Shown: piece after piece, positions 35,051-48,097 of the stretch
How positions within the stretch are numbered: the stretch's first letter is position 1
Layout of the letters: every line of letters begins with the position of its first letter
Source of the DNA: Mumia xiangluensis
GTDB taxonomy: Bacteria > Actinomycetota > Actinomycetes > Propionibacteriales > Nocardioidaceae
DNA length: 64,000 bases
Direction: 5' to 3'
NCBI RefSeq assembly: GCF_010994095.1
Contig: NZ_WJYO01000002.1
Span: 186,001 to 250,000, forward strand
The notes under the pieces: generated by a model
The model's input: only the letters and a program-made list of their open reading frames with translations
Databases searched by the model: none
What the model was told of the DNA's origin: nothing
Made by a program: the position numbers and the translations under genes

Positions 35051-35659
35051 TCAGTACGACGGCGCACGGTTCCGTCGCCGCTCGCGGTTGTCGCGCCGCC
35101 CCAGCCACCACGCCATCACGACACCGGCGAGCGCCCCCATCAGGTGCCCCTCCCACGAGACGCCGGCCTGGCCCGGGAGGACACCTCCGACGATCCCGCC
35201 GTACATGACGGCGACGGCGACGGCGACCAGGACCGACATGACGCGCCGCGTCACGATGCCCCAGAGCACGAGGAACGCCGCATAGCCGTAGACCAGTCCG
35301 CTGGCACCGATGTGGACCGTGTACGGAGCTCCGATCAGCCACGTGCCGAGCCCACCGATCAGGACGATGCCGAGCGTGGCGGGCCAGAACCGCGACGGCG
35401 CGGTGTACGACAGCAGGATCCCGAGCACGAGGAACGCCGTCGTGTTGGCGATCAGGTGGTCGAACCCGCCGTGCAGGAAGGGCGCGGCGGCGATCCCGTA
35501 CAAGCCGTCGGCGTCTCGAGGGCGGATGCCGTGCTGGTCGAGGAAGACCCCGGGCAGCGCATCGACGATCTCGAGCAGCCACATGGCGCCGAGCAGGATC
35601 AGCACCGGTATGGCGGGACCCAGGTACGACCGACGCACGGGCGTGCTCGTCGAGGACAT
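35051..35659 (-). CDS. rhomboid family intramembrane serine protease
   Basis: A 202-residue six-helix rhomboid. The catalytic dyad is Ser120 in GASGLVYG and His172 in EGHLMGALAG, with the HGGFDHLIANT loop (Asn72) at its usual place. It is convergent with tetR, three bases between stops. Substrates are unknown. Confidence 0.92.
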   Translation of the reverse strand: MSSTSTPVRRSYLGPAIPVLILLGAMWLLEIVDALPGVFLDQHGIRPRDADGLYGIAAAPFLHGGFDHLIANTTAFLVLGILLSYTAPSRFWPATLGIVLIGGLGTWLIGAPYTVHIGASGLVYGYAAFLVLWGIVTRRVMSVLVAVAVAVMYGGIVGGVLPGQAGVSWEGHLMGALAGVVMAWWLGRRDNRERRRNRAPSY

Positions 35660-35665
35660 GCCGTC

Positions 35666-35671
35666 AGCGTA
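35666..35671 (-). promoter_or_regulatory. TACGCT -10 box, leaderless-type promoter of the rhomboid gene
   Basis: Minus-strand TACGCT, six bases, then ATG 35659. Confidence 0.45.
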
Positions 35672-35879
35672 TCGGCGTGGAGCAACCTCCGTACGGCGGT
35701 CAACCGCGTCGGGTACCGCCGGCCGAGCCCCGCGGAGGTCACTGTCGCGCCGAGTGATCCGACGTCAGTCTCGTCGACACGTCACGTCGATGCCGTCCCG
35801 CGTCCACCTCGCCGACACGGGGATGTCGCCCGGCGCCACCACTGTGGTTCCGCCGATGTCCCCGAACTCAGGAGCTCCC

Positions 35880-37220
35880 GTGGCCCGACCGCTCGCCCGC
35901 CTGCACTCCCGCCGTACTCTCACGGCGTCGCTCTCGTCCGCCGCCGTCCTCGGCGCACTCTGCCTGGCAGGCACGCTGCCGGCGGTGGCGTCGCCCGACC
36001 GTACGCCGAAGGCTCCGCTCGTGACAGCGACCGTCGAGACGCGCGCGGTGTTCGACGACGAGGCCGGGAACAACGCGGACGCGGACGACCCCGCCATCTG
36101 GGTCGCACCGGGCAACCGCTCCGACAGCCTCGTCCTCGGCAGCCTCAAGAACGGCGGCCTCGACGCGTACGACCTTCGCGGGCGACTCGTCCAGCACGTC
36201 GACGCCCCCGCTGCGCCGGGCGAGGATCTCGAGTCCAGCCGTTTCAACAATGTCGACATCGCCACCGGAGTCCGCATCACCGGGCAGAAGCGGGACCTCG
36301 CCATCGTCACCGATCGCGGCCGCGACCGCCTTCGCTTCTACGCGATCGACGGGTCGGGTGCGCGCTACGGCAAGGTTCTTCACGACCTCACCGCGGCTGA
36401 TGCGCCGCGCCTGTTCTCGCCCGACGAGGCAGCCGTCGAGGAGCAGGCCACCGGTTACGGCCTCGCCGTACGACCTGACCCGACAGGCGGTCTCCCCTAC
36501 GTGGTCGTCAGTCAGCGCCACCGGACCACCGTCGGCATCTTCCGACTGGCGGTGACCTCGGAGGGAAGGCTGACGTACACGCCGGTCGACACCGTCGCGC
36601 TCCCGACGGCCTTCCCGCTCAGCGGCGGAGGCTCCTGGGTGCCGTGCGGCGAGCCCGGCGAGGACCCGCAGGTCGAGGGCATGGTCGTCGACACCGTGAG
36701 CGACGTCCTGTACGCCGCTCAGGAGGACGTCGGCGTCTGGCGCGTCCCTCTGGGCCGCACGGGACTCGGCAAGCCGGTGCTCGTCGAGCGGGTTCGCGAG
36801 TTCGGGGCTTCGGCGACGTACGACCCTGAGACGGAGGAGTGCACGGTCACCGGCACCTCGCCGGCCAGCGGCAAGCACCTGACGGCCGACGCCGAGGGCC
36901 TGACCATCGCGTACGCACGCAACGGCGACCGGACCCTGATCGCGTCCAGCCAGGGCGACAGCACCTTCTCGACGTTCCGCATCGGGCGCGGCTGGCGGTA
37001 CCTCGACACCTTCGAGGTCGAGGACTCAGCTGCCAGCGACGGCGTCCAGCACAGCGACGGTGCAGCCGTGGTCACGACGCCGCTCGGCCGCGACTACCCG
37101 CGCGGGCTCCTCGTCACGCACGACGGCGAGAACGGGCCTGACGTCCTCGACGCCGACGGCGAGGTGCGCGCGAGCACGAACTTCAAGTTCGTCGACCTCC
37201 GCAGGATCACCCTGCGCTGA
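35880..37220 (+). CDS. secreted phytase (beta-propeller 3-phytase family)
   Basis: A 446-residue exported phytase-like protein, expected to remove phosphate from myo-inositol hexakisphosphate with calcium. The signal peptide ends near LPAVASPD. Landmarks are the N-terminal strand DDPAIWVAPGNRSDSLVLGSLKNGGLDAYDL, RFNNVDIATG, YVVVSQRHRTTVGIFRL, PQVEGMVVDTVSDVLYAAQEDVGVW and the C-terminal GLLVTHDGEN. GTG 35880 is chosen because AGGAG stands six bases before it; ATG 35856 is the alternative. A palindromic terminator follows. Confidence 0.88.
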   Translation: MARPLARLHSRRTLTASLSSAAVLGALCLAGTLPAVASPDRTPKAPLVTATVETRAVFDDEAGNNADADDPAIWVAPGNRSDSLVLGSLKNGGLDAYDLRGRLVQHVDAPAAPGEDLESSRFNNVDIATGVRITGQKRDLAIVTDRGRDRLRFYAIDGSGARYGKVLHDLTAADAPRLFSPDEAAVEEQATGYGLAVRPDPTGGLPYVVVSQRHRTTVGIFRLAVTSEGRLTYTPVDTVALPTAFPLSGGGSWVPCGEPGEDPQVEGMVVDTVSDVLYAAQEDVGVWRVPLGRTGLGKPVLVERVREFGASATYDPETEECTVTGTSPASGKHLTADAEGLTIAYARNGDRTLIASSQGDSTFSTFRIGRGWRYLDTFEVEDSAASDGVQHSDGAAVVTTPLGRDYPRGLLVTHDGENGPDVLDADGEVRASTNFKFVDLRRITLR

Positions 37221-37294: not shown

Positions 37295-37314
37295 TCAGTC
37301 GAGGTAGTCGCGCA
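37295..37314. other. attachment site copy at the left end: displaced chromosomal 3' end of sigA
   Basis: TCAGTCGAGGTAGTCGCGCA, read on the minus strand, encodes RDYLD-stop, the same residues as the last five of sigA at 46772. It differs from the sigA copy at three positions, all synonymous. The last seven bases, TCGCGCA (37308-37314), are identical in both copies, and the sequences diverge completely beyond. This is what is expected of attL when an element inserts in the 3' end of a gene. Confidence 0.85.
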
Positions 37315-37465
37315 TTATGCCCGTCTCAACGCTGTGCAGTAGGCCTGATTTCGCAGCGATTCTGCGCGGTCCAAAGTAGCGGTATGCAGCGAAATATCAC
37401 CGCCTGACGACGGACTGTAGCCGTCACCCGCTAACCCTGCACGGCGCACCAGTAAGGATGGGAAG

Positions 37466-37768
37466 ATGGAAAGCCGGGTCGCTCCGAACCACTCCGCTCC
37501 TGACCCGCCTGAGCGGCGCTTGTGGCAGCGGGTGCTCAATGAGTGCTGGCCTCTCACGGACAAGGGCGGCAACGGGCATGCGCGGGGCATCCCGACCCGC
37601 CCGGCAGTGCCGGTGATGGTGTGGCTGGACTTTGAGCGGGACGGCGTGTGCTGGCTGCGGGCGCAGGCTGTGCGGTGGCATGGCCGGCACGTGTGCGTGA
37701 TGCTGACGGACGACCGGCTACCGGTCGCGTACGTGTGGGTGGAGGCGACCGACGTGCAGCGGACCTAG
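37466..37768 (+). CDS. hypothetical protein of the integrative element
   Basis: A 100-residue protein with Trp-rich patches (RRLWQRVLNECWPL, MVWLDFERDGVCWLRAQAVRWHGRHV) and a beta-strand pattern at the C-terminus (HVCVMLTDDRLPVAYVWVEATD). ATG 37466 follows AAGGATGGGAAG. No family is recognised. Confidence 0.65.
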   Translation: MESRVAPNHSAPDPPERRLWQRVLNECWPLTDKGGNGHARGIPTRPAVPVMVWLDFERDGVCWLRAQAVRWHGRHVCVMLTDDRLPVAYVWVEATDVQRT

Positions 37769-37850
37769 TCAGGTTTGGGGGGCTCGCGCGTTGCGCCTCC
37801 ACACTGCTACGGTCGCCTCAACAGGCGTCCACTGGTGCGGTGTGGTTAGG

Positions 37851-37873
37851 CACGGTGTGGTGGCAACACCGTG
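37851..37873. promoter_or_regulatory. 8-bp perfect inverted repeat between two element genes
   Basis: CACGGTGT-N7-ACACCGTG, between the stop at 37768 and the start at 37973. It could be an operator for the second gene or a terminator of the first. The 204-base gap otherwise shows nothing. Confidence 0.4.
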
Positions 37874-37972
37874 AGCGCGGCTGGTGCGCAGGACGCTTGG
37901 CCCAGTCGCCTCCGTCGGCAGTACCCGCTGAGCCAATCCGGCTCGGCGGTAAACGTCTGGACGGAGAGCACC

Positions 37973-38158
37973 ATGAGTACCCAAGAGAAGAAGGTCCGCC
38001 GACTCGCACGCCAGAGCGGCTTTCACCTGTGGAAGGTTCGTGTGAACGACCACGGCTCGGCCGAGTACGCGCCGTATGCCCTGGTCGACCTCGCCACGAA
38101 CAGCATCGGGCCGCGCGGCCTGATGCTCGATCAGGTCGAGGACTGGCTGCGAAGCTGA
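37973..38158 (+). CDS. small basic hypothetical protein of the element
   Basis: A 61-residue protein: a basic N-terminus (KKVRRLARQSG), then FHLWKVRV and YALVDLATNSIGPRGLMLDQVEDWL. ATG 37973 has GGAGA about six bases upstream, and a stem-loop terminator follows the stop. Small proteins of this look recur in actinobacterial mobile elements, but I cannot name a function. Confidence 0.7.
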   Translation: MSTQEKKVRRLARQSGFHLWKVRVNDHGSAEYAPYALVDLATNSIGPRGLMLDQVEDWLRS

Positions 38159-38174
38159 GTTGGGCCGTGGGCGG

Positions 38175-38200
38175 GGGCGGCCCGGACCTTCGGGCCGCCC
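38175..38200. terminator. 10-bp GC stem-loop terminator
   Basis: GGGCGGCCCG pairs exactly with CGGGCCGCCC around a six-base loop, directly after the 61-residue gene. Confidence 0.75.
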
Positions 38201-38242
38201 TCTACCTCAATGGCTAACTTGCGCATCGTTGGGAGCAGGCGC

Positions 38243-38413
38243 TCACTGCGACGTGCGCTCCAGCGCAGCGGACCGCGCCTGCTTGTTGAGCTGACGCCTC
38301 ATGTCAGCTCGAACGCGTCGCTCGGCTTCTAGACGGAGACGCTTGGCTTCCTTGCGATCAGCGATCTTCGGGTACTCCGTCACTCGAGGCTTCTTCAACG
38401 TCACCTTGCCCAT
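38243..38413 (-). CDS. 56-residue basic helical protein, overlapping the GAF gene
   Basis: A short frame, ATG 38413 to TGA 38243, encoding MGKVTLKKPRVTEYPKIADR and then an almost continuous Lys/Arg/Glu/Ala helix (KEAKRLRLEAERRVRAD...). AGAGGA stands about six bases before the ATG, a better SD than most neighbours have. It overlaps the 3' end of the GAF gene by 56 bases. Charge pattern suggests nucleic-acid or protein binding; function unknown. Confidence 0.6.
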   Translation of the reverse strand: MGKVTLKKPRVTEYPKIADRKEAKRLRLEAERRVRADMRRQLNKQARSAALERTSQ

Positions 38414-39206
38414 GACCGGTCCTCTCCGGGCCTGCGGCCCATCGCTCCCGGGCCGCGAACGCCGTTCCCAGCATCGCTGCCACCAAATCTACATAGACTT
38501 CGTCTGTCGAGGTGAACGCATGCTTGTCGGGCGCGTCTACTGTGAGAAGACCGTAGCCCGTCGCGCCGACAGCAATCGGTGATGTGATGAACGCTTCGTA
38601 GCCCTCGCCGGTACCTGACCACGCGCCACGTCTCGCGGCCTTGGCGTCCGAGATGCTGGTCACGGAGATGCGATGGCCGTCTTCTAGGGACTTGAAGGCT
38701 GCCTTGCCGCGTCTGCTGATGCGGTCGAAGCCCTCGGAGTTCCCCAACCGCCCATCTCGCGCGAAGCATGTCATGGTCTCTCCGCCGTCATCGACGGCAA
38801 ACACCATCGCGCGGACTTTGTCGGCTGAGACAAAGTGGGCGCATGATGAGGCGGCGTGCTGACACAGCATGGCGAACGCGGCCTCGTCCGCGCCGCCCTG
38901 AGTGAGTTCTGCGCCTGCTGTCGCAAGCGGCGTCAACGACTCGTGAAGTTGCTGATAGGCGTCAACGAGCGCGTTCCCGTTCTGATCCTCTTCCTTCCTC
39001 CGCCACCATGAGGCTGCGATGCCGGGGAGGGCGCACAGGACAAGCACAATGACGGCCCAGATCACACGCGCGAGCGTCGGGTCGTCAAGCAGTATCGCCG
39101 CGGCGACACTCGCCGCTAGACCTGCTACTGGCGCGACCCACATCCGCCGATCGGTCACCACGCCGAGCCAGGTGAAGACCATGACCCCCAGGACGCGGAA
39201 CGACAT
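38358..39206 (-). CDS. membrane protein with GAF-like sensor domain
   Basis: A 282-residue protein. Two or three hydrophobic helices span residues 5-66 (VAPVAGLAASVAAAILL; VIWAVIVLVLCALPGIAASWW), followed by a helix and a GAF-like domain from about 95 to 255 with CFARDGRLG, SITSPIAVGATGYGLLTVDAPDK-like sequence and a DLVAAMLGTAFAARE C-terminal helix. Start uncertain: ATG 39206 or GTG 39284, the latter ten bases after the preceding stop. Such proteins may sense redox state, nucleotides or other ligands. No output domain is attached, so it may act with another element protein. Confidence 0.7.
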   Translation of the reverse strand: MSFRVLGVMVFTWLGVVTDRRMWVAPVAGLAASVAAAILLDDPTLARVIWAVIVLVLCALPGIAASWWRRKEEDQNGNALVDAYQQLHESLTPLATAGAELTQGGADEAAFAMLCQHAASSCAHFVSADKVRAMVFAVDDGGETMTCFARDGRLGNSEGFDRISRRGKAAFKSLEDGHRISVTSISDAKAARRGAWSGTGEGYEAFITSPIAVGATGYGLLTVDAPDKHAFTSTDEVYVDLVAAMLGTAFAARERWAAGPERTGHGQGDVEEASSDGVPEDR

Positions 39207-39293
39207 GTTCGGGACGATAGCGTCGGACGAACCTGCTGCGGTGGAGAAATGCCGGACCGGGCAGTGGTACGTCCGGCCTGCCACGTCGATCGG

Positions 39294-39509
39294 TCAGATG
39301 ACCTCGGCGTCGGGGATAACCGAGCGGACGGTGTTGTCGAGGTCGGCGGGCTGCACAGTGCCGAGCGCGTAGTCGACCTCTAGGACGTAGTCGTTCTCGA
39401 TCGTGAAGTACACCTGCGCAGTCGCGCGAGCGGCCGCCAGGCGGAGCGCGATGTTGTCGAGGATGTGCTGCTCGACGTCAGCGGGGATCGTGTAACGGCG
39501 CGTGGGCAT
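39294..39509 (-). CDS. small hypothetical protein
   Basis: A 71-residue protein, MPTRRYTIPADVEQHILDNI..., with one amphipathic helix followed by beta strands (QVYFTIENDYVLEVDYALG). It lies between the chaperone gene and the GAF gene on the same strand. No family recognised. Confidence 0.6.
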   Translation of the reverse strand: MPTRRYTIPADVEQHILDNIALRLAAARATAQVYFTIENDYVLEVDYALGTVQPADLDNTVRSVIPDAEVI

Positions 39510-39626
39510 GGCCTCATCGTCGCCCTCCGCGACCGGGTCTCGCCACCAGGCTGTGGACAACCGTCCACCTGTGTGCCGTGACGTGACCACCAGACCGGTC
39601 CGCCACGAGTGGAAGAGTGTTGAGCC

Positions 39627-40088
39627 CTAGGCGTGCTCTTCTTCCTCATCCTCGGTCTGCGTGAACGGGGGCGGCCCGTTACGCTTCAGCATCTTGAGCG
39701 TCAGACTCGGGAGCCCGAGCCGGGAGGCGGCAGCCTGAACGGTCTCACGGATGTACGGGTAAGCGGCATAAAGAGCTACCTCCTGCCCGAACCCCGTGAT
39801 GGAGTCGATCGGGAAGTACTGAGCATCCTCAGAAGCGCTATGGGCAGTGACGACGGACGCTTTTATCTCCGCGATGTCGTCACCGTCCTCGTCCTTAACT
39901 ACGCAGAGGGCGTCGAATAGATAATCGATCTGCTCGGGCTCAAGTCGGTAGCGCGTATCTAGCTTCAACTCGTAGCCGTCGATATCCGCATTGCTCCACC
40001 GCCGAGCACTGAACTCGATCAGGTAGACCGAGTCCAGCTCGACCTTCTCGATGATCGCCCTAGCGGCCTCAACAGTGTCGTCGCTCAT
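39627..40088 (-). CDS. SecB-like chaperone of a toxin-antitoxin-chaperone module
   Basis: A 153-residue SecB-like protein. It has alternating beta strands (SVYLIEFSARRWSN, GYELKLDTRYRLE), then FGQEVALYAAYPYIRETVQAAASRLGLPSLTLKML, which corresponds to the SecB segment PY-x-R-E... G-x-PPL-x-L. The acidic tail EDEEEEHA is unusual. Its ATG overlaps the antitoxin stop by four bases. In the mycobacterial Rv1955-1957 system the equivalent chaperone protects the HigA antitoxin from aggregation and proteolysis, and gene order and overlaps are the same here. The role is inferred from that parallel. Confidence 0.82.
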   Translation of the reverse strand: MSDDTVEAARAIIEKVELDSVYLIEFSARRWSNADIDGYELKLDTRYRLEPEQIDYLFDALCVVKDEDGDDIAEIKASVVTAHSASEDAQYFPIDSITGFGQEVALYAAYPYIRETVQAAASRLGLPSLTLKMLKRNGPPPFTQTEDEEEEHA

Positions 40089-40486
40089 GCTGCCTTGGTG
40101 AAGTCGCTTCGGAACGACGGGCGGTCCGCGTCGACTCGGTGGAAGTCGGTCGTGACAACGTCGATCGGAGTGCTCCAGGCGACGTCGAACGCGGGCCGCG
40201 TGGCCTGGAGCCGCGCCGTGCCTGCCGGCACCAGGTCAAGACTCACTTCCTGTCCGAGTGCGTGGAGGTAGTCAGCAAGAGTGTTGAGTCTGATGTTCCC
40301 GTCACCGTTCAGGGTCTGTCCAACGGCGGACTTTCCGACCCCGAGAGTCTTCGCGAGAGCAGCCTTTGTGGTGCCGCTCTGCTCAAGTGCCTCGTGAAGC
40401 ACTTCGAGTGCCCGATACCGCAGTCTTGCCGCGGCGAGCCGTCGCGCGTTGTCTGGGATCGCCTCGAACTGCTCATACAGGCTCAT
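40085..40486 (-). CDS. XRE/HigA-type antitoxin
   Basis: A 133-residue antitoxin. The helix-turn-helix covers about residues 35-80 (TTKAALAKTLGVGKSAVGQTLNGDGNIRLNTLADYLHALG). It is followed by a C-terminal extension of about 50 residues containing RPAFDVAWSTPIDVV, a candidate chaperone-addiction segment like that known for mycobacterial HigA1. Four-base overlaps with the toxin upstream and the chaperone downstream indicate one polycistronic unit. It probably autoregulates through the palindrome at 40881-40898. Confidence 0.85.
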   Translation of the reverse strand: MSLYEQFEAIPDNARRLAAARLRYRALEVLHEALEQSGTTKAALAKTLGVGKSAVGQTLNGDGNIRLNTLADYLHALGQEVSLDLVPAGTARLQATRPAFDVAWSTPIDVVTTDFHRVDADRPSFRSDFTKAA

Positions 40487-40890
40487 TGCCGTTGATCCTC
40501 TCTCATGATCGCCATTCCCCGATCGATCTCGCGATGGGGAGTCTTGAGTCCTTGCTTAAGGAAGCCGTGCGTCAAGCGGACATGTCCGCACGACTCGGTC
40601 TTGCGGTAGTAGAACGGGAGTCGAATGGTGTGGGCCTTCAACTCATGCAGCTCTCCGCGGAGGTGGTTGAGTTGTTGGGGTTGCTTCAGAACGCCATGCT
40701 CGGCGAACCGCTCGAGGCGGATGAGAAGATCCGCGACCTTGTCCGCAAACTTCGGCCGTCCCATCAGCTCCTGCAGGAACAGCAACGCCTGCGGCTTACC
40801 GTCAACATCGAGTGCCGCTTCGACTTCGTACTTCCTCCCCACCTCCAGGACTGGCCTGCCACACTTGCATGTGCGAAAGAGTACAGTCAA
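40483..40890 (-). CDS. HigB/RelE-superfamily toxin
   Basis: A 135-residue toxin of the RelE/HigB (Gp49-like) type, expected to be a ribosome-dependent mRNA endonuclease. Typical elements are DGKPQALLFLQELMGR, LRGELHELKAHTIRLPFYYRK, then RLTHGFLKQGLKTPHREIDRG at the C-terminus. The start is TTG 40890 because GGAGG lies seven bases before it. GTG 40842 is possible and would give a more family-like N-terminus. Toxin-first order with antitoxin and SecB-like genes following is characteristic of TAC modules. Catalytic activity is not shown. Confidence 0.82.
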   Translation of the reverse strand: MTVLFRTCKCGRPVLEVGRKYEVEAALDVDGKPQALLFLQELMGRPKFADKVADLLIRLERFAEHGVLKQPQQLNHLRGELHELKAHTIRLPFYYRKTESCGHVRLTHGFLKQGLKTPHREIDRGMAIMREDQRQ

Positions 40891-40898
40891 GACTGTAC
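40881..40898. promoter_or_regulatory. palindromic operator of the TAC module
   Basis: GTACAGTC-AA-GACTGTAC, a perfect 8-bp inverted repeat with a 2-base centre. It covers the TTG start codon of the toxin and abuts its GGAGG site. It is the natural binding site for the HTH antitoxin and the only such palindrome I found near this module. Confidence 0.75.
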
Positions 40899-41076
40899 CT
40901 CCGGGGCAAGTATTCGCAAGATGAGACCACCTTCACGGAGAGGACTGACCGCACCCTACTGGAGTAGCGGGCCGCTTTCGGGTTTTTCCCGAGCGAGCAA
41001 GTTCCGTATGCCGCGGTACGGCGGTTGGGGTGGGGGGTGGGGGTTGCCTCCCCACGTCTGAGTGGGCTGTGTGTGG

Positions 41077-41871
41077 TCATGCTCGCTGGGTCTCCGGTGC
41101 GTGGGTGAGGTTGGTGGCGCGGTCACGGCGTTGGGCTGCGAGGGCGTCGACGCGTGCACGGGTGTCGGTGGTGCCGGCGAGGCTCCAGGGGACGCCGTGC
41201 TGGACCATCGCGTACGTGTCGGGCGGGTCGGTGGGTCGGCTGCCGGTGAGTCCGAGGACGTCCCAGTCGTCCGCGTCGAGCGCCGCGAGGTGGAGGGCTG
41301 CGGGCTGTGGCCGGCCGGTGGTGAGCTGGTCGATGCTCTGGAGCAGCCGGACGAGCTGGTTGAGTGCCTTGCGCGCGTCACGTGCGGGCAGCGCGAGGTC
41401 ACGCACGTCCAGCTCGAGGACTGCGGCGTCGTCGTCCAGGTTCACGTCTGGGCCGAGACGTTCAGCGGCTGCGGCGAGCGCAGTCACGTGCTGGTCGAAG
41501 GCTGGGGTCAGCTTCGCGATGATGGTGTCCTCGTTGGTGGTGATGGTCGCTGCGTAGCGGTCCACGGCGATGCTGGCCACTCGCTCGAAGAACACGCTGG
41601 GAGTGATGGCCTGCGCGATGACGATGCGGCGCACGGTCGGATCGAGCGTGGGGTCTTCGCCGCGGCTGAGTGCGTCGCGCACGGCAGTGGCGAGCATGGC
41701 GGGCTGGTGCTGGTGGTCGATGATGCCGGGCAGGTCCGCGGGCCCGGTGCGGCCCCAGGCTTGGACCTCGGCCAGGTGCTTGGCGGCACGGGTGAGCGCC
41801 GGGACCTTGACGCCGTGCTCGTGGAGGCCGGCGCGGACCTGTTCGGCGAGGAGTGTGTTCGGGCTGGGCAT
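41077..41871 (-). CDS. hypothetical protein, last gene of the element operon
   Basis: A 264-residue, mostly helical acidic protein with no membrane segment, beginning MPSPNTLLAEQVRAGLHEHGVKVPAL and containing RRIVIAQAITPSVFFERVASIAVDRYAATI. ATG 41871 has AAGGGAC six bases upstream. It is the distal gene of the leftward operon. I do not recognise it. Confidence 0.7.
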   Translation of the reverse strand: MPSPNTLLAEQVRAGLHEHGVKVPALTRAAKHLAEVQAWGRTGPADLPGIIDHQHQPAMLATAVRDALSRGEDPTLDPTVRRIVIAQAITPSVFFERVASIAVDRYAATITTNEDTIIAKLTPAFDQHVTALAAAAERLGPDVNLDDDAAVLELDVRDLALPARDARKALNQLVRLLQSIDQLTTGRPQPAALHLAALDADDWDVLGLTGSRPTDPPDTYAMVQHGVPWSLAGTTDTRARVDALAAQRRDRATNLTHAPETQRA

Positions 41872-41887
41872 GGTGATGTCCCTTCGG

Positions 41888-42238
41888 TCAGAGGTGGTCG
41901 GGGTCTGCGCCGAACAGTTCGGCGACGGTGCGGCGGGATTCCTGCTCGTCGTGGTTACGTCCGGCGTCGTAGGTGCCGGTCCCTTCGCGTGGCACGAACG
42001 GCGCATCACGGCGGGCGGGGTCGATGCTGGTGCTGTCGGTCTCGTCGGGTTGGAGCACGGACAGGATGTGAGTGGCGGGGTGCTCGCGCATGGCGTCAAA
42101 GAGCTGTGCGGCTTCGCGCTCTTCGGCGTCGTCTGCGGGCTGTGCCAGCAGCAGCTCGAGAGGGCTGGCGGGTTCGGGGTTGCGGTCGAGAGCGGCGAGC
42201 ACTCTTCCTGGTGCCGTGCGGCGAGGTCGCAGAGTCAT
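41888..42238 (-). CDS. hypothetical protein of the element operon
   Basis: A 116-residue Asp/Glu/Pro-rich protein (TLRPRRTAPGRVLAALDRN..., later VAELFGADPDHL). It lies 28 bases after the preceding stop and 16 bases before the next start. No motif recognised. Confidence 0.6.
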   Translation of the reverse strand: MTLRPRRTAPGRVLAALDRNPEPASPLELLLAQPADDAEEREAAQLFDAMREHPATHILSVLQPDETDSTSIDPARRDAPFVPREGTGTYDAGRNHDEQESRRTVAELFGADPDHL

Positions 42239-42266
42239 CGTGGGTTGGCCTTTCCTGGCAGCCCGT

Positions 42267-42527
42267 TCAGGACGAGCTGGAGTGTGGGTTCTCGTGAGCC
42301 GTGAGGCACGCGGAGAGGATCAGAGCGAGTTCGGTGAACGCGTTGCTGGCGGTTCTGGTGGGGATGCTCGTCGTGCCTGCGGCTTTGATCTGCTCGTCGA
42401 GCGCTTCGAGCCGGTCGAAGCAGTACTCGAGCGCGTCGACCGGAGACGGGAAGTACATGGGCGTCCGCTGCCGCCGGTACCGGACTTCGAGCAGCGACAC
42501 GACCGGGGCGGTGTTGTCCGTCGTCAT
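42267..42527 (-). CDS. small helical hypothetical protein of the element operon
   Basis: An 86-residue protein with two predicted helices (VDALEYCFDRLEALDEQIKAAG and NAFTELALILSACLTAHE). ATG 42527 overlaps the stop of the winged-helix gene by four bases. Function unknown. Confidence 0.62.
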   Translation of the reverse strand: MTTDNTAPVVSLLEVRYRRQRTPMYFPSPVDALEYCFDRLEALDEQIKAAGTTSIPTRTASNAFTELALILSACLTAHENPHSSSS

Positions 42528-43183
42528 GGCGTAGTCCTCTTCCGCGCGGCGGTCGAGTGGTGGGCTGCGACCGGCCTAAGGCGAAGGTGAAGGTGAGCTG
42601 CGAGCCGTGCGTGTGTGTCTCGCAGGAGGGGCCACGCCGAGCGGGCGGAGAACGTCAGGCGCGCGGCCGTTCGGCTCCGCCACGCGTGACCGTCGAGCGA
42701 CGGCACATGCTCCAGCATCGAGGCGTCCGCGTCGGTGCTGACGTTGCGGCAAACACCATGGCGGAGGTGGCCGATGGTTATATGGCGGGACGCCCAGGGC
42801 GTCACCCTATGGCCTGCAACGACGGGAACCGGCTTCTCCAAAGGGTGACGTTTCGGGGCCTCGCAAAGGGTGCTTGAAACTGTCACCCTTTGGGCGTCGC
42901 TGCCGCGGGACTTGAACATGCCGACGTAGACGGCGGTGCGGCCCTTCCAGCCCGTCTCGATCACGTCCAGGAAGCCGGACTCCTTGAGCACCTGGATGCG
43001 GCGCGACACCTGCCGCTCGGACCTTCCCAAACGTCGAGCGAGCAGGGCACGCGGCACCGAGACGTGCAGGTTCGCACGCATCTCCAAGAACAGCTCGGTC
43101 GCGGTGACCTTGATGGCGTCGGTCAGCGTCGCGCTCGACAGCACATGCCGTAGCCACTGCTCCCGTGTCGGCTTGGTGGGCAT
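42524..43183 (-). CDS. winged helix-turn-helix protein of the element
   Basis: A 219-residue protein. The N-terminal 90 residues are a winged HTH: TDAIKVTATELFLEM, then RALLARRLGRSERQVSRRIQVLKESGFLDVIETGWKGRTAVYV. The C-terminal half is basic, of unknown fold and possibly poorly conserved. Its coding region contains repeated AGGGTGAC boxes (42801-42893), raising the possibility that the protein binds inside its own gene, as replication initiators or autoregulators sometimes do. It starts four bases after the previous stop and ends overlapping the next gene. Confidence 0.7.
   Translation of the reverse strand: MPTKPTREQWLRHVLSSATLTDAIKVTATELFLEMRANLHVSVPRALLARRLGRSERQVSRRIQVLKESGFLDVIETGWKGRTAVYVGMFKSRGSDAQRVTVSSTLCEAPKRHPLEKPVPVVAGHRVTPWASRHITIGHLRHGVCRNVSTDADASMLEHVPSLDGHAWRSRTAARLTFSARSAWPLLRDTHARLAAHLHLRLRPVAAHHSTAARKRTTP
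42801..42893. repeat. AGGGTGAC boxes inside the winged-helix gene
   Basis: AGGGTGAC occurs on the plus strand at 42842-42849 and on the minus strand at 42801-42808 and 42882-42889; a partial AAAGGGTG lies at 42865. The second and third form an extended inverted repeat (42838-42854 with 42876-42893, one-base bulge). They could be iteron-like binding sites. Confidence 0.55.
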
Positions 43184-43186
43184 CGC

Positions 43187-43408
43187 CTACCCCACCGCCT
43201 CGGCGTCGTCGCTCACGTCGATGAACTCGACCGGAATCCGCTCGGCATCACACAGCGCGATCAAGTCCCGCGCGACCCGCGGGCTCGTCGCCCACACGCG
43301 ACGGTTCGGCAACCACATCGGCGACTTCGCGCCACACTCGACCAGCCGCGTGCGCGCGAGTGGACCCGAGACGAACGCCGCGCTCTTCGAGACGATCTTG
43401 ACGTACAT
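43187..43408 (-). CDS. small hypothetical protein of the element operon
   Basis: A 73-residue protein, MYVKIVSKSAAFVSGPLART..., ending VEFIDVSDDAEAVG. ATG 43408 shares one base with the stop of the Topo VI-A-like gene (TGATG), so the two are translationally coupled. Function unknown; the strict coupling suggests a partner role. Confidence 0.65.
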   Translation of the reverse strand: MYVKIVSKSAAFVSGPLARTRLVECGAKSPMWLPNRRVWATSPRVARDLIALCDAERIPVEFIDVSDDAEAVG

Positions 43409-44292
43409 CAAGATTGCTCACCCGCTTCCCAGTCGTCAGCGAGTTCCCGCAGCTTCCGCAGATCGTCGCGCTCTTGCCTCAGAACGCGGTCGAGCCGGTC
43501 GCGGTCGAGATGCCGAAGGATGGCGCGTTCGACAAGGCCCCGCAGGATCGTGGGCGGCAGAGCATCGACCTCCACGGACTCACCGACGAACGATGCGGAG
43601 CGAGAGTCCGTCGTTTTGGTCGGGCGCGTCGGTAGGGCGAAGGACTCGATCTGCTCAGTGTTGACGGCCAGTCGAGAGAACTCGATGGCGCTGTCGGGCG
43701 TGAACGCCGTGACCTTCCTCCGTATGTCGCGCCATGCGTCCACACCTGAGGGATCGTGGTCGCCAAGCTGATAGAGGAAGATCGTCTTGCCACGCCTTGC
43801 GTGTGCCGCGGCAGACCTCGCGAGGGAATGCGCGAAGGTTTCAGAGGAGTACCCACGCAATGTCGCTAGCTCGACGTCGTACCCATCGGTCACCGGCGAG
43901 ATGACTCCGGTCAGGGCGTCCTTCTCGATGCAGACGATCACCGCAGAGTCCTCGTCTTGCCAGATCGACCTGCGGTACGAGTCCGCAGCATGGCGGAGCG
44001 CCGCCCCGGGGCCGGAGAAGGTTCGCGGCGTCCGGATCAGGCGAGTGCCGTCGGTGATCCACTCATACGGAACCAGCCCCGCTTGTCGGAGCAGGACCAG
44101 CCGTCTACTCACGGTCTTGTAACCTGCCTCGGTCTTCTCGATCGCCCCCATCGAGACCAACCGGTAGTAGGCCCCTCTCACGGTGACTGGGTTCTCGCTC
44201 GAGACCGCGTCGATGATCGCTTCGTCGAGCGCTGCCATCTCTGCCTTCGTGCGGCGCGTCCTCTTTGCGGGACTTGGTCCATAGACGGTCAC
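43408..44292 (-). CDS. stand-alone Spo11/Topoisomerase VI-A-like protein (Mini-A type), putative
   Basis: A 294-residue protein with the order expected of a type IIB topoisomerase A subunit. A winged-helix part carries VRGAYYRLVSMGAIEK, matching the RxxYY motif of Spo11 and Topo VI-A; Y43 would be the DNA-attacking tyrosine. It is followed by a Toprim-like part with an acidic residue in VIVCIEKDALTGVI (E123) and the DxD pair in YQLGDHDPSGVDAW (D178, D180). No GHKL ATPase (B subunit) gene is in the element. Single-subunit Topo VI-A relatives on mobile elements are known (Mini-A). The start is a GTG at 44292, coupled by GTGA to the preceding gene. A Toprim nuclease without tyrosine chemistry is the main alternative. 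Confidence 0.7.
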   Translation of the reverse strand: MTVYGPSPAKRTRRTKAEMAALDEAIIDAVSSENPVTVRGAYYRLVSMGAIEKTEAGYKTVSRRLVLLRQAGLVPYEWITDGTRLIRTPRTFSGPGAALRHAADSYRRSIWQDEDSAVIVCIEKDALTGVISPVTDGYDVELATLRGYSSETFAHSLARSAAAHARRGKTIFLYQLGDHDPSGVDAWRDIRRKVTAFTPDSAIEFSRLAVNTEQIESFALPTRPTKTTDSRSASFVGESVEVDALPPTILRGLVERAILRHLDRDRLDRVLRQERDDLRKLRELADDWEAGEQS

Positions 44293-44522
44293 GACGCCAC
44301 CCCGCGTCGGGCTCGGCGTGATCGCTCACCGAGTACCGCGACCCGGATCGGGCAGTCCGTACACGGCACGCGGTTTGGAAGTCGGAGGTCGCGCCATTGC
44401 TGAGGCGACCAAGCGCCCAAGCTACTCAGGTGTCGCGCTGCGTCGGCTCCGCCCGCGCACATGTTCGCGGCGCCGCATGTCGTCGAGTTCGTGGGCCAGA
44501 ACGGTGATCGACGGTCAGTCAC
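44289..44522 (-). CDS. small cysteine-containing protein of the element operon
   Basis: A 77-residue protein from GTG 44522, coupled by GTGA at both ends. It has four cysteines in two pairs, TTCGAANMCAGG and PCTDCPIRV, which could bind a metal. The pattern is not the WhiB spacing. The tail is Arg-rich (GERSRRARRG). No family recognised. Confidence 0.55.
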   Translation of the reverse strand: MTDRRSPFWPTNSTTCGAANMCAGGADAARHLSSLGAWSPQQWRDLRLPNRVPCTDCPIRVAVLGERSRRARRGVAS

Positions 44523-44872
44523 AGCGACCACCCACGCAGTCCGGTCATGTCGATGGACAGTGACCAGCCGTGCTCCATCATCGCGGCCTCGAGCGCGGCT
44601 GTCGCGGCCGGGCAGTCAGAGGTGTGGTCTATCCGCCCTCGCAGCAATTGGCCGCGCTTGAGGGCCGCACGCCGCCGAGGCCGTAACGGAGTCTGGAGAG
44701 GCGCACCGCAGTCACAGCGACCATCGCGCTCCGCGGCCGCCCGCCGCGCAAGCCCTTCCTTGATCGCCACTGGAGCCGCGTCGGGCAGCTCGGCGACCAG
44801 GCGGACCATCGGAGCGCCACGCAGCTCATCAACGATCATGCGCGCACGGACGGTCTTCTCGATCGCGCTCAT
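44519..44872 (-). CDS. hypothetical protein with cysteine/histidine pairs
   Basis: A 117-residue protein with an N-terminal helical half, a central CDCGAP, a basic stretch (TPLRPRRRAALKRG) and HTSDCPAA, so one zinc site is possible. ATG 44872 and its stop overlap both neighbours by four bases. Confidence 0.6.
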   Translation of the reverse strand: MSAIEKTVRARMIVDELRGAPMVRLVAELPDAAPVAIKEGLARRAAAERDGRCDCGAPLQTPLRPRRRAALKRGQLLRGRIDHTSDCPAATAALEAAMMEHGWSLSIDMTGLRGWSL

Positions 44873-45195
44873 CGGGAAGCACCGCCTCGGCTGGTGCCGC
44901 CGGCCGGACCGTCACCGCTTGTCAGCAGCTCAATCGTCTCGGTCTCCGCGGCCTCCAGCGTCGCAGTGGCTTCGCGCAGCCGGCGTCGGGCCTGGGCGGA
45001 CTTGAGTGCCAGCCGCTTGAAGTGCGCCTTACGGAGGTGGGCGGCACGGACGGGGTCGCCGTCGGCGGCGTCGAGGAAGCGCTGATCGAGGGCAGCGCGG
45101 GCCGGGGCTGTGCGAAGGCTGCGGTCGGTGGTGTTCGCCCAGCTCATGTGGGCGGCGAGTGAGGCGAGCAGGCGTTGCTCGGATTCGGTGGCCAT
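44869..45195 (-). CDS. helical hypothetical protein, first gene of the element operon
   Basis: A 108-residue protein, nearly all helical and basic in the middle (VRAAHLRKAHFKRLALKSAQARRRLREATATLEAAETETIELL), possibly coiled coil. ATG 45195 has GGAG about six bases upstream. It heads the chain of overlapping genes that leads to the Topo VI-A-like gene. The 134 bases before it should contain the operon promoter, but I could not assign one with confidence. Confidence 0.65.
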   Translation of the reverse strand: MATESEQRLLASLAAHMSWANTTDRSLRTAPARAALDQRFLDAADGDPVRAAHLRKAHFKRLALKSAQARRRLREATATLEAAETETIELLTSGDGPAGGTSRGGASR

Positions 45196-45329
45196 GGGCG
45201 TCTCCAGGCGTCGGGAACCTGGCCGCCCGCTGAGGCGACCCTTCCCGTTACCTGATGAACGGCCCGGTACCGGAAGGCCGGCGGTCACCACTCACGGCAA
45301 CCGCTATTCGTACCCCGAATGTACAGCGC

Positions 45330-45698
45330 TCAGGGCTCCGCGCGCCACCGTCGCGCGTCGAGCGGCAGCGTCCGCGATGCGGGGCCGTGAGCGCGCATGT
45401 CGGTCAGCACACCGACGACGAGACGCCAGGCGACGATGTGGTCTCCGCGTTCACCGGCGAGCAGGCAGCGGGCGCACGACGCCCGCAGCCTCTCACCGTC
45501 GCGACGGAGGCCATGGCCGTCATCGTCCAGGCGTGCGTCGAGGTGGTCGGACAGCGAGCGACGGTGGATGCGGATGCCGCTGGCGTCCTCGACGACCTCG
45601 CCCAGCCTGTGGACAGCGTTGAGCGGACACACCACGGTGATCCGGCGGACGAACAGGTGCTCGTGCTCGGAGCGGATGGAGCGGCGTCGCCGGCTCAT
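45330..45698 (-). CDS. hypothetical protein downstream of the integrase
   Basis: A 122-residue Arg/His-rich protein with a CARC motif (RASCARCLLAGERGDHIVAW). It begins 33 bases after the integrase stop on the same strand. A directionality factor is a natural idea at this position, but no excisionase HTH is evident. Confidence 0.5.
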   Translation of the reverse strand: MSRRRRSIRSEHEHLFVRRITVVCPLNAVHRLGEVVEDASGIRIHRRSLSDHLDARLDDDGHGLRRDGERLRASCARCLLAGERGDHIVAWRLVVGVLTDMRAHGPASRTLPLDARRWRAEP

Positions 45699-45731
45699 GC
45701 CGCCACACGCTACAACAACTCACCTCCCCGG

Positions 45732-46655
45732 CTAGATGTCTCCGAGGTTGAGCTGCTGCGCCTCGTCGGCGGCGCGGTCTGCTGCCCGTGCCTTGGAGTA
45801 GCGCGCAATCATGTCGACTCTGCTCCAGCCTGCGACGGCCATCAGGCCGCTCTCGGAGCCTCCGGCGGCGAGCCAGCGGTGGGCCGCGGTGTGGCGCAGC
45901 CGGTGGGGGTGGAACCCGGTGATGCCGGCCGTGTCCGCGCGCTGGGCGAGTGTCTTGTGCAGGGCGTCGTAGGTGAAGCCCTTGCCGCGGTCGCCGACCC
46001 ACAGCCGTGGCGTCGCCGCCAGCCTGTGGCGGCGCCGCAGGCGTAGGTAGCGGTCCATCGCGCGCGTGGTCTGTGGACCGATCGGGACGGTGCGTCCCTT
46101 GCCGCCCTTGCCGCGGCGGATCGTGGCCCGGCCCTCGTCGAGGTCGATGTCCTCGAGGTTCATCGCGGCGACCTCGCCCGCGCGGGTTCCGGTCTCGAGC
46201 ATGAGCCGGATCATCGCCTCGTCGCGGCGGTGGCGCAACTGCTCGGCGGGGGTGGCGCCCTTGGGCGGCTGGCAGGCGCGGACGAGGGCGCGCAGCTCGT
46301 CGTCGGTCAAAGGCTCGACCACGCGCTCGTCCAGCTTCGGCGACTTGACCCCGAGGAACGGGTCGCCGGGAATCTCGCCCTCTGCGGCGAGCCAGGCGGC
46401 GAAGCGACGGACGGCGAGTTGGCGCGACCGGGCGGTCGCGGCGGCCGAGCCGGAGTCCAGCAGCCCGGCGACCCAGAGGTTGAGCGAGGCGCGGCTCATC
46501 GGCGGGGCCCCGTTCGCGGTGCACCAGTCGAGGTAGAACCGGACGCCGTCGCCGTAGGACTTCAGGGTCTGGGCCGACTTGCGCTCGGCCCGCAGCGCGA
46601 TCTGCCACGACTGGGCGAGCAGGCCGAACTCGGGGGCTGTGGGGGATGCTGACAC
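45732..46655 (-). CDS. tyrosine recombinase/integrase
   Basis: A 307-residue integrase of the XerC/D-like lineage. The N-terminal SAM-like core-binding domain (residues 10-95) is followed by the catalytic domain with R158 (TGTRAGEVA), Lys183/186 (GKGGKGR), H251-x2-R254 (HRLRH), W277 and nucleophile Y286 (MIARYSKA). The start is a GTG at 46655. It lies 116 bases from the sigA stop, at the right attachment site, as expected for an element that uses the 3' end of sigA. It should catalyse integration and, with a helper, excision. Confidence 0.93.
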   Translation of the reverse strand: MSASPTAPEFGLLAQSWQIALRAERKSAQTLKSYGDGVRFYLDWCTANGAPPMSRASLNLWVAGLLDSGSAAATARSRQLAVRRFAAWLAAEGEIPGDPFLGVKSPKLDERVVEPLTDDELRALVRACQPPKGATPAEQLRHRRDEAMIRLMLETGTRAGEVAAMNLEDIDLDEGRATIRRGKGGKGRTVPIGPQTTRAMDRYLRLRRRHRLAATPRLWVGDRGKGFTYDALHKTLAQRADTAGITGFHPHRLRHTAAHRWLAAGGSESGLMAVAGWSRVDMIARYSKARAADRAADEAQQLNLGDI

Positions 46656-46664
46656 GCCGTCAGT

Positions 46665-46686
46665 CTAGTCCGATATCCTGGACTAG
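46665..46686. promoter_or_regulatory. inverted repeat CTAGTCC-N8-GGACTAG upstream of the integrase
   Basis: Perfect 7-bp arms around GATATCCT, just 5' of the integrase start and inside the right end of the element. It could be an arm-type integrase site or an operator of int. Confidence 0.5.
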
Positions 46687-46721
46687 AGCGCTGTGCGTCC
46701 CGTGGGCGACCCGATCCGAAG

Positions 46722-46760
46722 CCCCGATACCGCCTCTGACCTGCGGAAACGGTATCGGGG
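46722..46760. terminator. 11-bp stem with 17-base loop beside the sigA stop
   Basis: CCCCGATACCG (46722-46732) pairs exactly with 46750-46760. Being 12 bases past the sigA stop on the minus strand, it may terminate sigA transcription. If so the element supplies the terminator as well as the last codons. It could instead be a recombination arm site. Confidence 0.5.
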
Positions 46761-46771
46761 ACGGCTAGACT

Positions 46772-46791
46772 TCAGTCCAGATAATCGCGCA
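46772..46791. other. attachment site copy at the right end (functional sigA 3' end)
   Basis: TCAGTCCAGATAATCGCGCA. The 7-base core TCGCGCA is at 46785-46791. Bases 46772-46784, encoding the last residues and stop of sigA, would have come in with the element. Their codons (GAT, TAT, CTG) differ from the displaced chromosomal ones (GAC, TAC, CTC). Confidence 0.85.
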
Positions 46792-48097
46792 GCACCTGCG
46801 AGCGCGACGGGTGACGGAGCTTGCTCATCGTCTTGGACTCGATCTGACGGATCCGCTCGCGCGTCACGCCGTAGACCTTGCCGATCTCGTCGAGCGTCTT
46901 GGGCTGACCGTCGGTCAGGCCGAAACGCATCGACACGACGCCGGCCTCGCGCTCCGAGAGCGTGTCGAGAACGGCGTGGAGCTGCTCCTGGAGGAGCGTG
47001 AACGACACCGCGTCCGCAGGGACGATGGCCTCGGAGTCCTCGATCAGGTCACCAAACTCGGAGTCGCCGTCCTCACCGAGCGGCGTGCGGAGGCTGATCG
47101 GCTCACGGCCGTACTTCTGCACCTCGACGACCTTCTCCGGGGTCATGTCGAGCTCCTTGGCGAGCTCCTCCGGAGTGGGCTCGCGGCCCAGGTCCTGCAG
47201 CATCTGGCGCTGGACACGCGCGAGCTTGTTGATGACCTCGACCATGTGGACCGGGATGCGGATGGTGCGAGCCTGATCGGCCATCGCGCGAGTGATCGCC
47301 TGGCGGATCCACCACGTCGCGTAGGTCGAGAACTTGAAGCCCTTGGTGTAGTCGAACTTCTCGACCGCACGGATCAGACCGAGGTTGCCCTCCTGGATGA
47401 GGTCCAGGAACAGCATGCCGCGACCGGTGTAGCGCTTCGCGAGCGAGACGACCAGTCGCAGGTTGGCCTCGAGGAGGTGGTTCTTGGCGCGGCGGCCGTC
47501 CTCGACGATCCACTCGAGCTCTTCGCGCATCGACTCCGAGAGGCGCTTCGCGGTGGCGAGCTGCTCCTCGGCGAAGAGGCCGGCCTCGATCCGCTTGGCG
47601 AGCTCGACCTCCTGGCCGGCGTTCAGCAGAGAGACCTTGCCGATCTGCTTCAGGTAGTCCTTGACCGGGTCAGCCGTCGCGCCGGCGACCATGACCTGCT
47701 GCGCCGGCTCGTCGGTCTCGTCGGCCGCGGAGATCGTGAAGCCGCTGGCCTCGTCCTCCTTGAGCGTCGGATCGGTCTTGAGATCCTTCTCGAAGACCTC
47801 GTCCGAGATGTCCGGCAAGATCTTCTTGCCGTTCTCGTCGACGATGATCGCGTCGGCGGTGACGTCGACCTCGGCGCCCTTGGCGGCTGCCTTCTTCGCC
47901 GTCGTCTTCTTGGCGGCGGTCTTCTTGGCGGGTGCTGCCGCCTTCTTCGCTGGAGCCGCTGCCTTCTTGGCAGGAGCGGCCTTGGCGGTGGCCTTCTTCG
48001 CCGCGCCCTGTGCGGTCGAGGCCTTCACCGTGGTTCGGGGGGCTGCTGCCTCCGCGAGGACCGTCTTACGTGCTCCACTGTCGGGCGCTGAAACCAC
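46772..48097 (-). CDS. sigA: principal RNA polymerase sigma factor
   Basis: A 441-residue group 1 sigma-70. The N-terminal 75 residues are a Lys/Ala/Pro repeat tail typical of actinobacterial RpoD/HrdB. Region 1.2 starts at [16 protein letters not shown]. Region 2 has [39 protein letters not shown] and [11 protein letters not shown], and region 4 has [18 protein letters not shown]. The start is a GTG at 48097 with GGGAG eight bases upstream. The last five codons and stop appear to be supplied by the integrated element without changing the protein. Confidence 0.96.

Follow-up and report, generated by a model that had tools for sequence, protein, structure and literature searches.

A 9.5-kb block beside the housekeeping sigma factor gene sigA of Mumia xiangluensis is almost certainly an integrative element that inserts site-specifically, its tyrosine integrase recombining an attachment site on the element (attP) with the 3' end of sigA. 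It lies in a stretch of 64,000 nucleotides (contig NZ_WJYO01000002.1, positions 186,001 to 250,000), hereafter the window, and belongs to a family of elements and phages that use the sigA end in several actinobacterial groups. The block is flanked by two copies of the sigA 3' end, TCAGTCGAGGTAGTCGCGCA on the left (37295-37314, minus strand) and TCAGTCCAGATAATCGCGCA on the right (46772-46791, minus strand), which are identical at 17 of 20 bases. Read on the minus strand, both encode R-D-Y-L-D-stop, and they share a 7-bp core, TCGCGCA (37308-37314 and 46785-46791; TGCGCGA in the direction of sigA). Beyond the core the copies differ at 3 of 13 bases, every difference being synonymous, and inward of it they diverge immediately. 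The integrase gene adjoins sigA, and its product passes the curated cut-off of PF00589 with 94.5 against 27.1 bits. An original prediction, made from the letters of this stretch, had described two sigA 3' ends around a block of about 9.5 kb, their common RDYLD-stop reading and exact core, the full divergence on one side with synonymous changes on the other, and a tyrosine recombinase next to sigA, and every one of these features is borne out. From core to core the element measures 9,477 bp, with a G+C content of 0.668 compared to 0.706 and 0.699 in the 10-kb flanks. No further site within 5 mismatches of the right-hand 20-mer exists on either strand of the 64 kb. Because the core alone is frequent there (23 plus-strand and 19 minus-strand occurrences), the significance lies in the in-frame match and not in the core.

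We compared six genomes of the genus, the window's included, each having one sigA match at E ≤ 1e-100. The integrase was not found in the five genus-mates at E ≤ 1e-40, and in all five sigA ends in GAC TAC CTC GAC TGA, as does the displaced left copy, and not in the element's GAT TAT CTG GAC TGA. Joining the window's flanks yields a virtual attB, the presumed empty chromosomal site, which aligns unbroken to G002 (85% over 797 bp) and G004 (82% over 814 bp; genomes, contigs and loci are cited by our G, C and L labels). The attB rebuilt in the original prediction from the displaced codons and the sigA body thus has real counterparts. In both genomes sigA directly adjoins the phytase gene that borders the window's element, and in G003 the two are separated by 926 bp of inserted DNA that has a second att copy and no integrase. 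The name phytase for this gene (35310-37220) is weakly supported, a phytase-like model matching with E 1e-20 and 73.9 bits against a cut-off of 440.

The same arrangement was found in many other actinobacteria. In the family sample, 41 of 294 genomes held integrase matches at E ≤ 1e-40 (46 matches, 30 with loci); sigA stands next to the integrase in 10 of these 30 loci, the window's included, and in an eleventh (G038 C14) a sigA tail is visible where the contig ends. Among named genomes the integrase lies behind sigA in 6 of 15 loci, namely in Nocardioides glacieisoli, an Actinomycetota metagenome-assembled genome (MAG; TET1), Actinotalea fermentans, a Micrococcus MAG, Glutamicibacter creatinolyticus and Demequina sediminis. 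The class sample gave 14 integrase matches at E ≤ 1e-60 in 13 of 394 genomes, half of them (7/14, again counting the window's) behind sigA. Together with G007 this amounts to 23 sigA loci including the window, i.e. about 22 others from several actinobacterial families, a count in which recognised duplicates are merged (window, G140 = L039, G531) and further overlap between collections is possible. Both ends could be mapped for 14 elements of 7,140 to 19,281 bp. Where the original prediction had called sigA an uncommon target, sigA is indeed the target, but it is no one-off, recurring for the window's integrase family. A plasmid search returned 54 records, all below 60% identity, with 25-30% in the best 15 of the 54.

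Independently of the integrase, we searched for the left junction (attL) with the pattern TAR-TGCGCGA-coding end and, in the family sample, with a looser version of it. The pattern occurred at 8 places in 5 of 394 class genomes, and 12 of 294 family genomes matched the looser version; both sets include the window's genome, and a reversed control pattern gave no matches in either sample. Apart from G048 and G130, the 12 family genomes likewise hold an integrase match (10 of 12). We then compared 19 att pairs, comprising the 14 full elements, G003, G038 C16, G450 and two units of the MAG G352. Between core and stop codon these pairs show 13 base differences, all synonymous as compared to a random-change expectation of ~16-18%, a statistic that is partly ascertained because most attL copies were found by the coding pattern. 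The sigA-borne junctions were not found by pattern, and 18 of 18 read in frame to LRDYLD-stop or, in G232, to LRDYLE-stop; the nineteenth pair, G352b, begins at a unit junction rather than at sigA. The G232 host sigA (L059/L091) ends RDYLE, and there the element-supplied and displaced ends both encode RDYLE with different codons.

From its sequence, the attP or circle junction of the window's element is predicted to read CATAA-TGCGCGA-TTATCTGGACTGA, and sites of the predicted form TAR-TGCGCGA-YTAYCTSGACTGA near an integrase are present in phage sequences. The attL pattern matched 8 IMG/VR contigs, which may represent free phages, and 6 of these 8 loci hold a related integrase with 50-61% identity; no sigA match was found in any of the 8 stretches examined. 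The order is element left end, core and integrase, with a spacing of 108-166 bp in five contigs and 775 bp in L112. As left end, core and integrase follow in series, these sites are attP, neither attL nor attR. Streptomyces phage Kromp (MH744420), the best phage match with an integrase of 57% identity, carries TAGTGCGCGACTATCTCGACTGA roughly 100 bp before its annotated tyrosine integrase. The attP that the earlier analysis had rebuilt on paper therefore occurs in nature, both in IMG/VR contigs and in Kromp. Kromp and the viral contigs (L112-L117) resemble the window's element in the integrase, 50-61% identical, and in the preceding attP, which encodes VRDYLD-stop, but they differ in size, Kromp having 58 kb and the viral contigs, read in stretches only, 14 to 79 kb, compared to 9.5 kb without recognised virion genes.

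The ends of the elements share short motifs at regular distances from the core. Of 20 elements or units, 15 have an ACAGCG-like motif at -21 to -23, 15 have a CAGGTCAG-like motif at +47 or +48, and 12 have a further ACAGCG-like motif at +95 to +97. The spacing deviates in G531 (mid motif at +62, right motif at +85), only the mid motif was seen in G003, and no motif was found in G450. Three left motifs, those of G086, G238 and G248, escaped our search expression but can be seen in the sequences, and an alignment of 11 right ends reproduces the motif blocks. In the genus, AGGT and ACCT border the 7-bp core within the sigA reading frame, flanks of a type expected of a tyrosine-recombinase core site. 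Between the restored sigA stop codon and the integrase gene the window carries a hairpin (fold z -3.07, with 0 of 200 shuffles as stable). We prefer to read the mid motif as a DNA site set at a constant distance.

These data suggest the following mechanism. The integrase would bind the arm motifs and recombine the element's attP with the chromosomal sigA 3' end, the crossover probably falling inside the 7-bp TGCGCGA, across the last Leu-Arg-Asp codons. To the right of the core the element brings D-Y-L-D-stop codons of its own, and integration would thus exchange the last chromosomal codons for synonymous ones and place the displaced codons at the element's far end. As the replacement codons are synonymous, the SigA protein would remain unchanged. 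The element's hairpin, a likely terminator next to the restored stop, would replace the displaced sigA terminator and shield the co-directional integrase gene from sigA read-through.

Both junctions, the empty sites, the in-frame restoration, the recurrence, the phage attP and the motif spacing are apparent at the level of sequence. Several observations weigh against the proposed integration at sigA. The phytase gene is not beside sigA in two of the five genus-mates, G001 and G005; the original prediction had named such relatives as evidence against itself, and its expectation of phytase-sigA adjacency thus stands for G002 and G004 and formally fails in these two. In both, sigA adjoins the gene that flanks the other side of the phytase gene in the window (35051-35659, rhomboid-like as judged by eye only), which fits the element model if the phytase gene was gained or lost separately. 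Relatives of the integrase also lie away from sigA, at 19 of 30 loci in the family sample, 9 of 15 among named genomes and 7 of 14 matches in the class sample, and this number of relatives elsewhere indicates that the wider family is not uniform in target specificity. In some relatives the integrase is interrupted, those of Demequina (L049) and G006 (L062), two of the 14 mapped elements, aligning in separate pieces, and among the 18 window proteins scanned there is no transfer or conjugation family (FtsK-like Tra, relaxase, type IV secretion system), a scan that could miss unscanned open reading frames (ORFs). Regarding the hairpin, the fold z falls below -2 in only 8 of 17 right ends, and arm pairing in fixed register averages 7.4 of 15, compared to 6.6 for cross-pairing, with 607 of 20,000 permutations as good. 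Owing to this weak register complementarity and the low share of stable folds, we rejected the idea that all right ends form a conserved RNA hairpin whose loop is conserved too, and we claim the hairpin for the window and some relatives only.

Alternatively, the second sigA end could stem from a local duplication, or from chance, the block then being ordinary chromosomal DNA that arrived by homologous recombination. Short duplications do occur at this site: G002, which has no element there, carries a 23-bp tandem duplication of TGCGCGACTACCTCGACTGAGCC starting exactly at the integration core (L004 ~2792-2837), which could be a scar or result from slippage between TGCGC repeats. However, the codons of the two copies in the window differ, and it is the distal copy, not the sigA-borne one, that agrees with the genus. 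The two-ended structure recurs together with the integrase family in unrelated genera, and attP is present in phage sequences, all of which renders a duplication exceedingly improbable.

The block might instead be a decayed and immobile remnant fixed behind sigA, resembling a cis-mobilizable element (CIME) or a defective prophage or satellite. The lack of structural and conjugation genes among the scanned proteins speaks for such a remnant, as do the integrase-less insertions in relatives (G003, 926 bp; G450, 822 bp; G038, 1,402 bp). Yet the window's integrase is an uninterrupted frame of 307 aa with what we take, by eye, to be the usual tyrosine recombinase catalytic motifs, both att sites and the motifs are present, and the absence of the integrase from the 5 other species of the genus examined fits a recent arrival. 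We consider a remnant unlikely. Quite conceivable, if somewhat doubtful, is a phage satellite packaged by a helper phage. The size of 9.5 kb would suit a satellite, and among 20 large ORFs scanned at sigA in relatives there are single phage genes, encoding a capsid (G191), a minor tail protein (G232), D5-type primases (L040 and L043) and a CHAP domain (G086). The integrase family and a phrog_2842-like gene also occur in phage sequences. On the other side, Pfam and PHROG profile scans recognised no virion structural, capsid or packaging gene in the window's element, and no helper was identified.

The integrase-less insertions behind sigA in G003, G450 and G038 C16 each have both att copies, although no left arm motif was found in G450. 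Passages of PMC5704250 describe CIMEs as integrase-less units that keep both att sites and accrete in tandem at one target. The combination of two att sites and no integrase is found in G003, G038 C16 and the G352 units, not in the window's element. In the MAG G038, the sigA tail is followed by the integrase in one contig (C14, L063) and by the 1,402-bp integrase-less insertion in another (C16, L106), as if two population variants had been assembled. We rejected as an element a 35,024-bp interval in G130 between sigA and an attL-like site, which contains chromosomal-looking genes (10 ORFs scanned) and no related integrase. In this interval (L104+L131), the left and mid motifs are in place, with metabolic and transport genes inside.

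The MAG G352 contains tandem units, the evidence for cassette-like arrays coming from this one fragmented assembly. The end sequence of one unit was found 11 times at E ≤ 1e-6 and 12 times at 1e-5; among the 4 genomes of the genus and order searched, G366 holds one copy. On C78 (L161, 849-3805), three consecutive units of 1,107, 1,239 and 611 bp stand behind sigA, the last junction being without a stop codon, on C27 (L158, 11-9937) two units of 3,597 and 6,330 bp follow another sigA, and C182 (L087, 1189-3664) also carries tandem integrase-less units. Ten unit ends align over ~82 bp, reaching the core, and the interiors of six units show no mutual similarity at E ≤ 1e-3. Units that share ~82-bp ends around unrelated interiors resemble a cassette array more than they do a single decayed island, and in this they depart from CIMEs. 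The proteins encoded on these contigs include members of the GNAT, ion channel, amine oxidase, surface-repeat and glyoxalase families, some of the ORFs lying at incomplete unit borders. C121 (L086) and C194 (L160) are 97-98% identical on both sides of unmatched DNA (~4.3 compared to ~1.9 kb) that occupies the same array position in both contigs and starts at the core. No related integrase was found in G352 at E ≤ 1e-25. The two sigA copies of the assembly are 89% identical (DNA, 1,052 bp), and C121/C194 and C181/C182 are partly 95-98% identical; given such divergent sigA copies next to near-identical contigs, the MAG may mix organisms. We tentatively propose that the sigA 3' end might anchor an integron-like cassette system in Actinomycetota, in which a family of sigA-specific integrases, borne by phages and by elements of about 10 kb, would mobilise small integrase-less cassettes with ~82-bp ends in trans, the cassettes then stacking behind sigA as on C78 and C27 of G352, an idea that we hold with some doubt.

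More distant integrases of the family occupy other targets. They lie behind ffh (L025, L029, L142), ftsX (L030), a phosphoglucomutase-like gene (L045) and an acyl-CoA ligase-like gene (L140), and in L141 at the 5' end of an efp-like gene; these names reflect our reading of translated ends, not database calls. Others are found at tRNA-Met, recognised as a whole gene by ARAGORN in L023, L026, L031 and L034, by eye in L139 and as fragments elsewhere, and for several loci (e.g. L020, L028, L035, L143, L144) the target was not identified. The motifs upstream of some integrases at other targets look similar by eye. In a first tree of 41 rows the tRNA-Met integrases nest inside the sigA integrases with starred support. 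In a second tree of 44 rows, which takes in other rows and omits the long or unlabelled L046, L051, L038, L020, L028, L035 and L044, the backbone collapses, and an approximately unbiased (AU) test mildly rejects a single sigA clade (p 0.04), a group that we had defined with the first tree in view. Neither tree contains the integrases that are in pieces (L036, L037/L062, L049). With tRNA-Met rows nested and the backbone collapsed, we dropped a single origin of sigA targeting, the direction of switching not being settled by the tree.

The features of the window's element are collected in Table 1. Profile scans covered 18 window proteins with Pfam, 10 with PHROGs and 10 with NCBIfam; the phytase was among the NCBIfam queries. 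Overlapping integrase frames aside, the phrog_2842-like protein is the sole non-integrase family common to all 14 full elements; in each of the 15 sigA loci checked its gene lies 3' of the integrase gene and in the same orientation, and tblastn (E ≤ 1e-4) detected it in none of the 8 long loci of the tRNA-Met integrase group. Its AlphaFold model has a pLDDT of 92, and Foldseek returned nothing significant, the best hits being Fis entries at E 5.5; that it acts as a directionality factor is a guess. PADLOC gave weak matches only on the window's element. Among the relatives, the G531 element encodes a SIR2-domain protein (L082 10601-12418) of the PADLOC candidate defence family PDC-S65 (E 1.6e-178). 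A second region of the window's own genome (G000:C2 at ~112.6-119.0 kb, L089) resembles the element in two places, the left-end ORF (278 bp) and an inner stretch (155 bp), at ~70% DNA similarity, and holds no integrase match of the window's family. Outside the element, window positions 57223-57483 (plus strand) encode a second sigma-70-like C-terminal region with 39% identity to SigA, likely an alternative sigma factor.

Table 1. Features of the sigA-borne element, in window coordinates
Feature	Position	Strand	Support or remark
attL: displaced chromosomal sigA 3' end, GAC TAC CTC GAC TGA, with core 37308-37314	37295..37314	-	codons as in 5/5 genus-mates
Left arm-like motif CACAGCG, 22 bp inside core	37330..37336	-	
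100-aa ORF at left end, no family	37466..37768	+	~69% DNA similarity at G000:C2 near 118.7 kb
GAF-like protein, 308 aa	38358..39284	-	GAF_2 E 2.7e-4, below cut-off
Toxin-antitoxin-like gene pair	40085..40890	-	HTH_3 protein 40085-40486 (1.1e-6, above cut-off); Gp49-like 40483-40890 (1.5e-4, 22.2 bits against 23.9)
Helix-turn-helix protein, weakly similar to DnaD-like helicase loader	42524..43183	-	Pfam E 0.0005 (below cut-off); PHROG 0.0019
Topoisomerase-like protein (phrog_6247)	43408..44292	-	E 5e-64; no Pfam family
phrog_2842-like small helical protein, 108 aa, downstream of integrase	44869..45195	-	PHROG match
Tyrosine integrase, 307 aa, downstream of sigA in the same direction (116 bp between ORFs)	45732..46655	-	Pfam PF00589 (Phage_integrase) 8e-27; PHROG integrase 2e-45
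Right arm-like motif just upstream of integrase	46672..46697	-	
Hairpin between restored sigA stop and integrase, possible terminator	46722..46760	-	perfect 11-bp inverted repeat (11/11 bp arms)
Mid motif CAGGTCAG, 48 bp from core	46736..46743	-	
attR: restored sigA 3' end, element-supplied GAT TAT CTG GAC TGA, with core 46785-46791	46772..46791	-	
sigA, housekeeping sigma factor, 441 aa, in frame with element-supplied end	46772..48097	-	

Insertion into the 3' end of a conserved protein gene is known from other elements. Streptococcal integrative and conjugative or mobilizable elements (ICEs and IMEs) with tyrosine integrases are described, in the relevant part of PMC4701971, as inserting into the 3' ends of rplL, rpsI, lysS, rpmG and guaA with flanking direct repeats, and passages of PMC5704250 state that the att repeat contains the end of the target gene, which is left undisrupted. 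The window's element is alike in its tyrosine integrase, its target in the 3' end of a conserved protein gene and its flanking direct repeats, and differs in that the target is the primary sigma factor gene, the hosts are actinobacteria and no conjugation genes were seen. Actinomycete integrative and conjugative elements (AICEs) share actinobacterial hosts, the tyrosine integrase and 3'-end targeting; they carry characteristic replication and transfer genes, whereas the window's element has no recognised genes of this type. According to PMC3218068, AICEs with tyrosine integrases have been reported overwhelmingly in tRNA genes.

Stacking behind a restored gene is likewise familiar. Staphylococcal cassette chromosome (SCC) elements stack behind the restored 3' end of the conserved gene rlmH by means of large serine recombinases (Ccr); the stacking is alike, whereas the recombinase here is of the tyrosine and not the Ccr serine type. 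Integrons hold tandem cassettes anchored at one site by a tyrosine recombinase. The window integrase reaches 36.7 bits to the integron integrase model TIGR02249 (IntI) against a cut-off of 265, and the junctions look like attP/attB. In the literature searched, we found no mention of sigA, rpoD or hrdB as attachment site among the matches listed, though island databases may list such sites, and the parts seen of PMC10654092, PMC12884075, PMC10111431 and PMC8138268 do not mention a sigA target. A large island database places 43.4% of islands in coding sequences, as stated in part of PMC12424338, and may include sigA islands. These comparisons suggest that the kind of element is known, and that the sigA target and its family are without a description in the literature searched.

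Being essential and highly conserved, sigA offers a 3' end that is expected as a site common to actinobacteria. The interest of the system lies in the breadth of the family, the attP sites in phages and the possible cassette arrays, the arrays being its least expected part. The att sites show how a protein-coding target is kept intact with as few as 7 identical bases, by way of synonymous codons, and kin at ffh, ftsX, an acyl-CoA ligase-like gene and tRNA-Met make target switching testable. If confirmed, the cassette arrays would be another stacked gene-capture system beside integrons. With their protein-neutral insertion site, the sigA integrases could moreover become an integration tool for actinobacteria for which few genetic tools exist.

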